Assembly (NCBI GenBank): GCA_938010655.1
Contig: CALLVA010000174.1
Location: 1-39,468, forward strand
Source of the DNA: an uncultured Parvularculaceae bacterium
GTDB lineage: Bacteria; Pseudomonadota; Alphaproteobacteria; Caulobacterales; Parvularculaceae
DNA length: 39,468 bases
Direction: 5' to 3'
The notes under the pieces were generated by a model that saw only the letters and a program-made list of their open reading frames with translations, did not search any database and was not told the origin of the DNA. Both the position numbers and the translations under genes were made by a program. This document shows positions 33,880-39,468 of the stretch, piece by piece (within the stretch, counting starts at the first letter, position 1; the number at the start of each line of letters is the position of its first letter).

Positions 33880-35715
33880 CTATTCCACCGTCACAGATTT
33901 TGCCAAATTGCGCGGCTGATCCACATCCGTTCCTTTTGAGCAAGCGGTATAATAAGCCAGCAATTGGATGGGTACAGAATATGCTAATGGGGAGAGCATC
34001 GGGTCTGTTTCTGGCACAGCAATCGAGCGCCAGAGCTTGCCCCCTTTTTCCGCTTCAGCAATGCCTTTTTCAGAAGACACCAAAAGACATTTGCCGCCGC
34101 GCGCCATGACTTCATGCATATTGGAAATTGTTTTTTCAAACAGAACATCGTCATCTGGCGCCACCACGATGACAGGCACATCTTCATCGATCAACGCGAT
34201 AGGACCATGCTTCAACTCTCCAGCCGCATAGCCTTCTGCGTGAATATAAGAAATTTCTTTAAGCTTCAACGCGCCTTCCAATGCCATTGGATAAGACACA
34301 CCGCGACCAAGATATAAAACATCCCGTGCTTTGGCGATATCATCAGCAAGGGCTTTAATGTCAGCTTCGGATTTCAACGCTTCAGAGATCTGGCGCGGCG
34401 CTTCCAAGAGCGCGGTTACGAGACGGTTTTCCTCTTCGGGAGAAATTGTGCCCCGCTGTTTCCCGGCTGCAATGGCCACGCAAGCAAGCGCTGCTAATTG
34501 GCAGGTAAATGCTTTGGTTGAAGCAACCCCAATTTCTGGGCCCGCATATGTCGGGCAAAGGCCATGGCTTTCCCGCGCAATGGTTGATTCTGGCACATTC
34601 ACGATCGAGCAAATCATTTGCCCATTTTCTTTTGCATCGCGCAATGCCGCCAATGTGTCTGCGGTCTCCCCAGATTGGGAGATAAACAACGCCCCGCCAT
34701 TCTTCGTATACACCATATCGCGATACCGAAGCTCAGAAGCCACATCAATTTCAATCGGTAAGCGCGCCCATTTTTCAAACCAATATTTTGAAATCAACCC
34801 CGCATAAAATGCGGTGCCACAGGCGGACATGGTCAATCGATCAATATTGGTAAAATCAAGCGTGTCTGCCGGCAGTGAAATTGTTTTGGATACCGGGTCA
34901 ATATAAGCCGATAGTGTATGCCCGACGACTTCAACCTGTTCATGAATTTCCTTCGCCATAAAATGACGATGGCCACCCTTATCAACCATCATGGCCGACG
35001 CTTGGGAAATTTGCTCTTCGCGAGAAACAGCGTTGCCCTCAACATCGAAAATATCAAACCCATCCCGGCGAATCTCAGCCAAATCACCTTCCGCAAGATA
35101 GGTCACCAAATTTGTAAAAGGCGCAAGCGCATACGCATCAGAGCCGAGGAACATTTCTCCTTCGCCGCGCCCTATCGCCAGAGGGCTGCCTTGGCGTGCA
35201 CATAAAATAAAACCATCATTACCCGGAAAAATAGCGGCCAGTGCATAAGCGCCTGTCAGTCTTTTAACCGCCGCCATAAAGGCCTGTTTTGGGCCTAAAT
35301 TTTGAGTCATCATCAGATGCGTCACAAGTTGCGGCACAACTTCTGTGTCCGTCTCGCTTTCAAAGACACGGCCTTCCGCGATCAACTCTGCGCGCAAATC
35401 TGCAAAATTTTCGATAATACCATTATGCGCAATCGCCACGCGATCTGTGGAATGAGGATGTGCATTTGCTTCTGTCGGCGCCCCATGGGTGGCCCAACGG
35501 GTCTGCCCGATGGAGACGACGCCTTCCAAAGGCTCAGCATCCAAAAGAGCTTTCAAATTCACCATCTTGCCTTTGGCGCGGCGGCGCGCCATGACGCCAT
35601 CTTTCAAAGTGGCTATGCCTGCTGAATCATATCCTCGATATTCAAGCCGTTTCATCATTTCAAAAACGGAAACCGCTGCTTCTTCTCGCCCAATGACACC
35701 TACTATACCGCACAT
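33880..35715 (-). CDS. glmS: glutamine--fructose-6-phosphate aminotransferase (isomerizing)
   Basis: MCGIVGVIG N-terminal Cys; SIS domain motifs; C-terminal DVDQPRNLAKSVTVE. Confidence 0.97.
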   Translation of the reverse strand: MCGIVGVIGREEAAVSVFEMMKRLEYRGYDSAGIATLKDGVMARRRAKGKMVNLKALLDAEPLEGVVSIGQTRWATHGAPTEANAHPHSTDRVAIAHNGIIENFADLRAELIAEGRVFESETDTEVVPQLVTHLMMTQNLGPKQAFMAAVKRLTGAYALAAIFPGNDGFILCARQGSPLAIGRGEGEMFLGSDAYALAPFTNLVTYLAEGDLAEIRRDGFDIFDVEGNAVSREEQISQASAMMVDKGGHRHFMAKEIHEQVEVVGHTLSAYIDPVSKTISLPADTLDFTNIDRLTMSACGTAFYAGLISKYWFEKWARLPIEIDVASELRYRDMVYTKNGGALFISQSGETADTLAALRDAKENGQMICSIVNVPESTIARESHGLCPTYAGPEIGVASTKAFTCQLAALACVAIAAGKQRGTISPEEENRLVTALLEAPRQISEALKSEADIKALADDIAKARDVLYLGRGVSYPMALEGALKLKEISYIHAEGYAAGELKHGPIALIDEDVPVIVVAPDDDVLFEKTISNMHEVMARGGKCLLVSSEKGIAEAEKGGKLWRSIAVPETDPMLSPLAYSVPIQLLAYYTACSKGTDVDQPRNLAKSVTVE

Positions 35716-35726
35716 ATTATTATATC

Positions 35727-37073
35727 CTATTTCTTATTCTTTGCACGGAACGTTGCCGCCCAGCCAGATTTCATGACTTGTCGACCCCGCGCCACCGCCA
35801 GATCATCTTTTTCGACATTCTTTGTGACAACTGATCCAGACCCCACATAAGCTCCATCTCCAATGGAAACTGGTGCCACTAAAGAAGAATTGGACCCGAC
35901 AAACGCGCCAGCGCCAATCTCTGTCTTGAATTTATTGAACCCATCATAATTACAAGTGATCGTGCCTGCGCCAATATTAGCATCTGCCCCCACATGAGCA
36001 TCGCCAATATAACTCAAATGGTTCACCTTTGCGCCCGCTTCCAAAACTGCTTTTTTCAGCTCAACAAAATTGCCCACTTTTGACGCTGGTCCCAAATCTG
36101 CCCCCGGTCGCAGCCGCGCATATGGCCCTGCCATCGCCCCTTCTCGAACGATTGTGCCTTCAAGGTGGGAAAAGGCTTTGATCTCCGCGTTATTTTCAAC
36201 CGTCACGCCGGGCGCAAAGACAACCCCCTGCCCAATGATGACATCTTGACCAATTTTGGTATCATAAGAAAAATAAGTCGTATGCTGATCTAAAAGCGTT
36301 GCGCCATCTTCCATCGCTTTTTGGCGCGCGCGCCGCTGGAACACATCTTCTGCCACCGCTAATTCAACCCGCGAATTAACCCCCAACACTTCTTCTTCTG
36401 TGCCTTCCACAACCGAACAAGAGTGACCCGCATCACGCGCCAAACCGACAATATCTGTCAGATAATATTCGCCCTTCGCATTCTCATTGCCAATTTTGGG
36501 CAATTCGTTTTTCAAAACATCAGAATGGATTGCCATGAAACCAGAATTACAAAGCCCAACCGCAAGCTCGTCTGGGCTTGCTTCTTTTGCCTCAACAATT
36601 TTTAAGAGGCTGCCTTCTTGATCGGTGATCAGGCGTCCATAAGCGCCTGCATCTTCCAAGGTAAACCCCAGAACCGCAACACCCGCCCCTGCTGTCACTG
36701 CGTCCACAAGTTTTTGCAGGGTTTGCGCGGTCACCAAAGGACTATCCGCAAAGAGCACCAAGACAACACCGTGAAAACCATCAAGACCTGGCAAGGCTTG
36801 CGCGACAGCATCGCCCGTGCCTTGCGGCGGCGCTTGCACAAAAATACCGGCTTCAGCATGCAATGACGTTGCGACATCACCAACTTCCGGCGCGTGATCG
36901 CCAATTACAACACCAAGCCGCGTCAGCTGTAATGTCTCTACGGTTTTGATCACGTGGCCGAGCATCGGCAGCCCCCCAACAGGGTGCAGCACTTTTGGCA
37001 AAGCTGATTTCATTCTGGTGCCATGGCCAGCCGCCAAAATGATCGCTGCAATATCAGTTTTCGTCGCGCTCAT
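35727..37073 (-). CDS. glmU: bifunctional UDP-GlcNAc pyrophosphorylase / GlcN-1-P acetyltransferase
   Basis: IILAAGHGTRMKSALPKVLHPVGG, hexapeptide repeats, TITCNYDGFNKFKTEIGAGAFVGSNSSLVAPV. Start set at MSATKTD (37073); the ORF-track extension to 37232 is not supported by homology. Confidence 0.96.
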   Translation of the reverse strand: MSATKTDIAAIILAAGHGTRMKSALPKVLHPVGGLPMLGHVIKTVETLQLTRLGVVIGDHAPEVGDVATSLHAEAGIFVQAPPQGTGDAVAQALPGLDGFHGVVLVLFADSPLVTAQTLQKLVDAVTAGAGVAVLGFTLEDAGAYGRLITDQEGSLLKIVEAKEASPDELAVGLCNSGFMAIHSDVLKNELPKIGNENAKGEYYLTDIVGLARDAGHSCSVVEGTEEEVLGVNSRVELAVAEDVFQRRARQKAMEDGATLLDQHTTYFSYDTKIGQDVIIGQGVVFAPGVTVENNAEIKAFSHLEGTIVREGAMAGPYARLRPGADLGPASKVGNFVELKKAVLEAGAKVNHLSYIGDAHVGADANIGAGTITCNYDGFNKFKTEIGAGAFVGSNSSLVAPVSIGDGAYVGSGSVVTKNVEKDDLAVARGRQVMKSGWAATFRAKNKK

Positions 37074-37225
37074 GAGTGTATCATTCTCCCCGGTCTTGCC
37101 CCGCTCGTTGCATATCTTATAGCAAGAAGCTTGCCCAGTGACGTTATGTTTCTTTTTCTTTCCAACGTCTCCTAAACTCTGAAAAAGATTGAGATATATT
37201 GTCAACACAGCTTCAGGGTGAATCC

Positions 37226-37420
37226 ATGACACCGCTTAACACGCTCTGCGTTATTTTTGATCTTGATGGCACCTTGATTGAGACCGCGCCAGACTTAGCC
37301 GGGGCCATGAACCGCGTGTTGATCAACGAAGGATATGCGGCTTTGCCTGTCTCGCAGGTGCGCCCACTGATTGGCCATGGCGGTCGCGCGATGCTGCGGG
37401 GCGCTTTAACCCATTTTTGA
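37226..37420 (+). pseudogene. gph: truncated HAD phosphatase (phosphoglycolate phosphatase-like) remnant
   Basis: Starts VIFDLDGTLIETAPDLAGAMNRVL...GHGGRAMLRGALTHF and then stops after about 65 aa; a shifted frame continues as FEEGIEANS but no HAD motif II/III follows. Confidence 0.75.
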
Positions 37421-37981: not shown

Positions 37982-38671
37982 ATGCGAGAACCTTTACTCT
38001 CTTCCTTGCGAGAGACCGTCGACACCACGCCAGATCTCACCGCTATTGGGGAGCGTATTCGTGTTGCGCGCAAGAATATCGGCTTGAAACAGGCCGATCT
38101 GGCTGAACGACTTGGGGTCACCCAACCGACTGTAGCCAATTGGGAATCGGGGGTTCACGATCCTCGTCAGTTAATGTTGGCCAAAATTGCGGAAACAGTT
38201 GGGGCAAGCCTTGGTTGGCTCGCCAGTGGGGAGCGATCTCAGCAAGAAAAAGACAAGCAACCCGCCGCGGCCTATTTGCGCCGGGGGCTGTTCCATGTGC
38301 CCATTGTCTTGATGCGGGACATTGCCCGATTATCAGAAGCCCCGGACATGGATTTTCATACCTATGCCACGGATTATATTCCCTTCACGGCGGGCAATGA
38401 TGGTGTCTTTGGTGTTTTCGTTAAAGACCCTGCTATGGATCTTGCTTTTCCGGGAGAGACCTTGGCGGTGATAGACCCTAAATTGCGCAGCCCGGTCGAT
38501 GGGGATTTTGTACTGATGTCCCGGGAAGGCGAAGAACCGTATATTCGAAAATGGCGCGTCAATCCGATCCGGCTTGAGCCTGTTTCCAGCATGATGAGTT
38601 TTGAGCCTGTGCCCGTCAATAATTTGAAAGGGCTTCTTGGCTCTGTCTTGGTGTCCATTCGATTCCATTAA
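37982..38671 (+). CDS. XRE-family regulator with S24/LexA-like C-terminal domain
   Basis: HTH: IGERIRVARKNIGLKQADLAERLGVTQPTVANWESGVHDP; C-terminal FPGETLAVIDPKLRSPVDGDFVLMSREGEEPYIRKW. Confidence 0.85.
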   Translation: MREPLLSSLRETVDTTPDLTAIGERIRVARKNIGLKQADLAERLGVTQPTVANWESGVHDPRQLMLAKIAETVGASLGWLASGERSQQEKDKQPAAAYLRRGLFHVPIVLMRDIARLSEAPDMDFHTYATDYIPFTAGNDGVFGVFVKDPAMDLAFPGETLAVIDPKLRSPVDGDFVLMSREGEEPYIRKWRVNPIRLEPVSSMMSFEPVPVNNLKGLLGSVLVSIRFH

Positions 38672-38741: not shown

Positions 38742-39468
38742 ATGAGCCATAAAGACACCATGATATCGCGCGGCACCACTTTTACCCTGACGAACTGGGC
38801 CATCAACAGCACGGGGAAAAGCGTCGCTTTTTCCTATGAGTGCAGCCGGTTTGGTCCCTTTACAGAAGAAGTGTCTTTTCCCTTTGAAGCGCGCGCCCTT
38901 CAGCCCACCGAAGAGATGTCTCGCCTTTTGGATTTGTTACATATCGCGCTGGGGGTCAGTTATTACAAAGCTGCAGCCGCAGAAAAAATTGAATTGCCTG
39001 TGTCAACCCCTGCTGCCATCGAAATGGCACGTCTTCTTTATACGGAAGGCTTAGCCGAATTTTTCGTGCGCGCCGGGCTGGACTATCCTGTTGCCACCAC
39101 ATTTAGGACCAAGTCGAAAAATTACAAAACTGCCAAAAGCCATGCGCCAGAGCCAAGTGATATTGAGTGTCTTATTGCTTTTGGAGGCGGCAAAGATTCT
39201 TATGTTGCCAAAGCGATTTCTGACCAAGCAGGTTACAAAGCGGCGCTTTGCTCTGTCACATTGTCGCCCCGTGTTGAAACAATTTTGCAAGGCACAGCGC
39301 CAGAACCCCTGATTTTTCTGCATCGAAAATTAGACCCAAAAATTCGCACCCTTGACCCGGCAAAAGCTTTTAATGGGCATATCCCCATCACCGCAATCAA
39401 CTCATTGATGCTGGTGATCTTCGCGAAAATGATGGGGATACGGCAGGTGGTTTTTGCCAATGAGCGGT
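38742..39468 (+). CDS. murL: UDP-N-acetyl-alpha-D-muramoyl-L-alanyl-L-glutamate epimerase-like protein (MurL), 5' part; runs off the window edge
   Basis: Open frame from ATG 38742 to the last base: ...IECLIAFGGGKDSYVAKAIS...GHIPITAINSLMLVIFAKMMGIRQVVFANER. PP-loop-like GGGKDS and the TAINS...NER motif are recalled as typical of MurL. Confidence 0.78.
   Translation, partial: MSHKDTMISRGTTFTLTNWAINSTGKSVAFSYECSRFGPFTEEVSFPFEARALQPTEEMSRLLDLLHIALGVSYYKAAAAEKIELPVSTPAAIEMARLLYTEGLAEFFVRAGLDYPVATTFRTKSKNYKTAKSHAPEPSDIECLIAFGGGKDSYVAKAISDQAGYKAALCSVTLSPRVETILQGTAPEPLIFLHRKLDPKIRTLDPAKAFNGHIPITAINSLMLVIFAKMMGIRQVVFANER

Follow-up and report, generated by a model that had tools for sequence, protein, structure and literature searches.

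The open frame at the right edge of the window, the 39,468-nucleotide stretch of DNA analysed here, is with little doubt the 5' half of murL, and together with murD2 across an assembly gap it would supply D-glutamate (D-Glu) for peptidoglycan. The MurL/MurD2 system is already known, Parvularcula included (available excerpts of PMC8788868). The additions made here, from sequences and models, are an apparent pseudo-MurD retained beside the new route and a predicted QueC-like fold of MurL. The positions of the features are listed in Table 1.

Table 1. Features of the window, of the window genome and of MurL-MurD fusion loci (positions without a locus name are those of the window)
Feature	Position	Strand	Basis or remark
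glmS	33880..35715	-	TIGR01135, 752 bits
glmU	35727..37232	-	NCBIfam PRK14353/TIGR01173
Regulator immediately preceding murL, HTH_3 / weak S24 (CI- or LexA-like)	37982..38671	+	Pfam
murL, N-terminal 242 aa	38742..39468	+	NF041275 profile match; 3' part cut by contig end
PP-loop FGGGKDS (ATP pyrophosphatase motif) of MurL	39180..39200	+	GGGKD invariant, 35 MurL sequences
GHIPITAIN motif of MurL	39375..39401	+	G, H, P, A invariant, 35 MurL sequences
MurD-like frame, 473 aa, dcw cluster between mraY and ftsW	L012:6892-8313 (contig C101, window genome)		intact frame
MurL-MurD fused frames	L151:5929-8499; L155:2396-4918; L156:1-2580; L167:1070-3619; L171:2-2287		gammaproteobacterial genomes

The truncated murL and its neighbourhood

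The frame (38742-39467, forward strand) is free of stop codons up to the contig end, and its truncation is an assembly break, because the window is the entire contig C174 of a draft genome (2.19 Mb, 207 contigs, 78.5% complete). Approximately 209 residues of MurL are absent beyond this end. Met7 (38760), which aligns better with relatives, is a possible alternative start. The translated half matches the NCBIfam profile NF041275 (MurL) with an E value of 3.1e-36 over profile positions 10-238 of 447, and no Pfam model matches the frame. Its score of 124.8 bits is below the curated cut-off of 700 bits because only half of the protein is present; this cut-off is fitted to Xanthomonadales, and the full-length MurL proteins of Parvularculaceae reach 254-339 bits. 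The sequences FGGGKDSYVAK, GHIPITAINS and VVFANER, from which the initial annotation had proposed a MurL-like gene at the window edge, are all present in the translation, and the proposal is upheld by the profile match and by the lack of a stop codon before the end. Across 35 diverse aligned MurL sequences, 14 columns are invariant, and all of them fall within the half encoded in the window. The window's own MurL is included in this alignment and therefore contains all 14 invariant residues.

The regulator encoded upstream of murL matches HTH_3 (6e-14) and, under the gathering score, Peptidase_S24 (4.5e-4) in Pfam. It has a homologue in 13 of the 17 murL loci of relatives and may control murL-murD2. 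The linkage to glmU and glmS, also claimed by the initial annotation, is confirmed: both genes are identified by profile, and their homologues lie near murL in 12 and 11 of the 17 loci, respectively.

Full-length MurL is encoded by 17 of 60 relatives, all of them Parvularculaceae of the genera g3 (Parvularcula), g5, g6 and g8 (mostly Aquisalinus). Among the same 60 genomes, it is absent from the genera g2, g4, g7 and g9 and from the other families sampled. The window MurL, from genus g1, is 43-52% identical to 16 of the 17 proteins and 38% identical to the most distant one, that of genome G005. A MurD gene lies directly downstream of murL in all 17 relatives, often overlapping the murL end. 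When GTDB contigs were scanned independently with the alignment as query, MurD was found adjacent or fused in 69 of 72 MurL-like loci, five of which, all gammaproteobacterial, encode MurL and MurD in a single frame; the scan with the window protein alone as query found no relative. In the three loci without an adjacent MurD (L122, L177 and L178), the murL gene is partial, lies close to the end of its contig or is a distant relative only. The last of these belongs to Crenothrix polyspora, which has a distant MurL-like protein with no MurD beside it, together with MurI and a strong canonical MurD elsewhere in the genome. This protein possibly has a different function.

Xanthomonas oryzae (PMC8788868) resembles the window genome in having a MurL of this family encoded by a gene adjoining murD2 (XOO_1319 and XOO_1320), in having neither murI nor Dat (D-amino-acid transaminase), and in having a MurD2 with Arg for K348. 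The window differs in that it contains half a gene, scoring ~125 bits with the Xanthomonadales model, in a glmS/glmU neighbourhood, and in that the old MurD of the dcw cluster is retained in this genome in an apparently inactive form. Parvularcula MurL and MurD2, listed in the same report, are the same gene pair from the same family, but the window genus g1 branches deeply and separately, with a best MurL identity of 52%. The available excerpts of this report do not mention a retained pseudo-MurD or the MurL fold for Parvularcula. The window murL extends the MurL/MurD2 route, a proposed target for narrow-spectrum drugs.

MurD2 and the supply of D-glutamate

The last 192 residues of a MurD are encoded at the right end of another contig of this genome, C193 (8727 bp). 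This fragment is ~50% identical to the murL-linked MurD2 of Aquisalinus-type genomes and is adjoined by a convergent CAP-domain gene, homologues of which are found at the same place in 10 relatives. Contig C193 very probably continues contig C174 across a gap of ~1.4 kb, because its MurD2 end adjoins the CAP gene, which in relatives comes after murL-murD2. The expected content of this gap, ~209 residues of MurL and ~250 residues of MurD2, is near 1.4 kb. It is highly unlikely that C193 is not a neighbour of C174 and that its MurD half comes from another part of the genome. No sequence overlap joining the two contigs is found, and contig ends are arbitrary, but murL-linked MurD2 is the nearest match of the fragment, and the CAP gene comes next to it, just as in relatives. 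With C193 as the continuation of C174, the prediction of the initial annotation that murD2 lies just past the right edge agrees with a C-terminal half in the relatives' gene order on an inferred join. Its second prediction, that the genome has no murI, agrees with the search result, since no match is detected even at E<=10 in this 78.5% complete genome.

The C193 fragment has Arg at the position of E. coli MurD 348 and Leu at position 319. All full-length murL-linked MurD2 proteins aligned have Arg348 and either Leu or Ile at 319, and canonical MurD has Lys at both positions. They also retain the E. coli residues K198, H183 and E157. D182 is replaced by Glu in most of them; this position falls in the missing half of the window genome's own MurD2. 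The murL-linked MurD2 proteins of four Parvularcula genomes (G002, G022, G026 and G030) keep Asp182, yet have Arg348 and Leu319. For Xanthomonas MurD2, the residues equivalent to D182 and K348 (R358 for K348) are reported to set the choice of L-Glu, and the K319T mutation lets E. coli MurD accept L-Glu (available excerpts of PMC8788868). The MurD-like gene of the dcw cluster was also considered as the MurD2 partner and was rejected; its catalytic residues are gone, and it is the C193 fragment instead that resembles murL-linked MurD2.

Single gene absences are weak when taken alone, because the window genome is incomplete. MurI does not exceed the cut-off in any of the 36 Parvularculaceae members searched, including the 17 MurL-bearing relatives. 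A clear MurI match is present in most genomes from other families of the order. No MurI exceeds the cut-off in another 20 MurL genomes, of which one is a Parvularcula and 19 are of other lineages; the one exception is Crenothrix, with its distant MurL-like protein. No bona fide Dat is found in the window genome; its three aminotransferases of the Dat superfamily are best named as IlvE-type or PabC-type, and all are under the Dat cut-offs. With the Dat profile TIGR01121, MurL-less members of the family score 223-291 bits (149 bits in one draft genome), and MurL-bearing members score no more than 161 bits. The MurL-less genera g2, g4, g7 and g9 have no MurI and show a strong Dat match in nearly all genomes, and they therefore probably obtain D-Glu via transamination. 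The Parvularculaceae are a natural experiment, in which D-Glu appears to come from Dat in some genera and from MurL/MurD2 in related ones, and from MurI in none. A PF01177 (Asp/Glu-racemase family) protein is present in many relatives, including several MurL-bearing ones, and is not found in the window genome. Such proteins were rejected as hidden MurI, as the single example inspected, from G028, is an aspartate/glutamate racemase-type protein.

It is extremely unlikely that the window frame encodes a MurL homologue acting on another substrate, with D-Glu provided by a murI or Dat located unseen in the 20% of the genome that the draft lacks. This degree of completeness leaves room for such a gene, and the distant Crenothrix protein coexists with MurI and canonical MurD. 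However, near-complete MurL-bearing relatives are without MurI and Dat, and the window genome's own dcw MurD has lost its catalytic residues, so that the cell needs MurD2. Assignment of the frame to another PP-loop family of the QueC, TtuA, ThiI or TilS type, which the initial annotation had named as the finding that would speak against MurL, is barely credible: the PP-loop is common to TtuA, TilS and MnmA and the predicted fold is QueC-like, but no family other than NF041275 matches significantly, and the relatives are full-length MurL proteins whose genes are followed by murD2 and whose genomes have no murI.

The MurD retained in the dcw cluster

The MurD-like frame in the dcw cluster of the window genome carries the changes K198M, H183T, D182V, K319S and K348Q, by which catalytic and D-Glu site residues are gone. 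A dcw MurD of this apparently inactive type is present in 16 of 19 MurL-bearing Parvularculaceae, with an internal stop in none (dcw clusters L086-L102, L226, L227 and L235). Among these 19, dcw MurD is not found in G014, G024 and G032, and the retained MurD is not essential throughout, because these three genomes live without the gene. The murD slot of G014 is empty, with 167 bp between mraY and ftsW (L094, between 7336 and 7503), and that of G024 (L095, 1110-6882) contains ~5.8 kb of other sequence. The P-loop residues G111, G114 and K115 are kept in all dcw MurD copies compared, and the catalytic residues vary. In two Parvularcula copies a Lys aligns at position 198, but in a poorly aligned stretch from which its neighbouring residues have been lost. 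For two close pairs of genomes, the dN/dS values of dcw MurD are 0.063 (G007 versus G028) and 0.075 (G004 versus G012), and that of murC for the latter pair is 0.064. As judged from these ratios, the dcw MurD is under purifying selection and is not simply decaying, because its dN/dS resembles that of murC.

The dcw MurD of G005 (L093:3492-5003) is 59% identical to canonical MurD. It differs at 10 of the 92 positions that are invariant across 11 canonical MurD proteins, and these positions are mostly in the active site (P72S, G137A, I139P, E157K, D182V, K198M, K319S, T321S, K348Q and S415P). The genome of G005 also contains murL and murD2, and the changes in its MurD look like a recent, independent inactivation. 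A tree of seven dcw genes separates G005 from the other MurL genera and groups it with the MurL-less genera g2, g4 and g7 (support 97-100). These other MurL genera have divergent dcw MurD copies that fall into one clade (support 100) of the MurD tree; the G005 copy is placed with canonical MurD. The MurD2 and MurL of G005 fall outside the main Parvularculaceae clade, and none of the window's other neighbours is present at its murL locus. Two independent switches to MurL/MurD2 in the Parvularculaceae fit these phylogenies best, and one ancient switch with reversals is less favoured. In other lineages, the old murD seems simply to have disappeared, as judged from the spacing of dcw matches.

The balance tips modestly towards the reading that the resident dcw MurD became a maintained pseudoenzyme, at least twice independently, in those Parvularculaceae that switched to MurL/MurD2. 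If so, MurD would have a role apart from catalysis that outlasts its reaction, for example in structural partnership with MurG, MurE/MurF or FtsW. A structural role of the retained MurD in a cell-wall enzyme complex is plausible, because Thermotoga MurG binds MurD, MurE and MurF (cited in PMC6420597, available excerpts). As a rival explanation, the gene may be kept for translational coupling to ftsW, whose frame overlaps that of murD by 4 bp. Purifying selection on the MurD protein opposes coupling as the full explanation. A new catalytic role of the retained MurD is another rival to a structural one. A search of the available literature retrieved no description of a retained inactive MurD. 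Its retention makes the long-standing question of a possible structural role of Mur ligases in a cell-wall enzyme complex directly testable.

Predicted fold and chemistry of MurL

MurL uses one ATP and forms AMP, and adenylation of the alpha-carboxylate has been proposed (PMC8788868 and PMC5808125, available excerpts). A review from 2018, in its available portion, describes MurL as being without known conserved domains. We infer from the published enzymes of Xanthomonas, Micromonospora and Salinispora that MurD2 in this organism would add L-Glu to UDP-MurNAc-L-Ala and that MurL would adenylate the alpha-carboxylate of the MurD2 product using ATP with release of PPi, epimerise the Glu of this product from L to D, and hydrolyse the adenylate to form AMP.

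An AlphaFold2 model of a full-length MurL (L107) has a pLDDT of 88.5. The best match of this model in a fold search is QueC (3bl5; probability 1.00, E 1.9e-4, TM 0.70 by target), followed by ThiI and TtuA with poor superposition. The half encoded in the window was modelled with a pLDDT of 90.7; its fold matches are weak, the best being QatB-QatC (E 4.6e-3). Comparison of the MurL profile with PDB sequences gives weak PP-loop matches (PH0300/TtuA PP-loop, E 3.5e-4), and a search of PDB sequences with a single full-length MurL sequence gives none. At the end of E. coli QueC, the sequence TCYNGF..GCGHCAAC aligns with the MurL cysteine motif SCNRNF..WCGxCxKC. The MurL motif lies past the contig end in the window genome and is present in 31 of the 34 other aligned sequences.

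MurL is modelled as a QueC-like PP-loop adenylating enzyme, in keeping with AMP-forming chemistry. As QueC adenylates a carboxylate, a QueC-like fold fits the chemistry proposed for MurL and gives it a mechanistic frame. QueC (7-cyano-7-deazaguanine synthase), TtuA, ThiI and MnmA share the PP-loop fold seen in the MurL model, and QueC has in addition a similar cysteine motif. MurL differs from these enzymes in that it has no full-length sequence similarity to them, acts on a different substrate, carries an additional N-terminal domain and extends further at the C-terminus.
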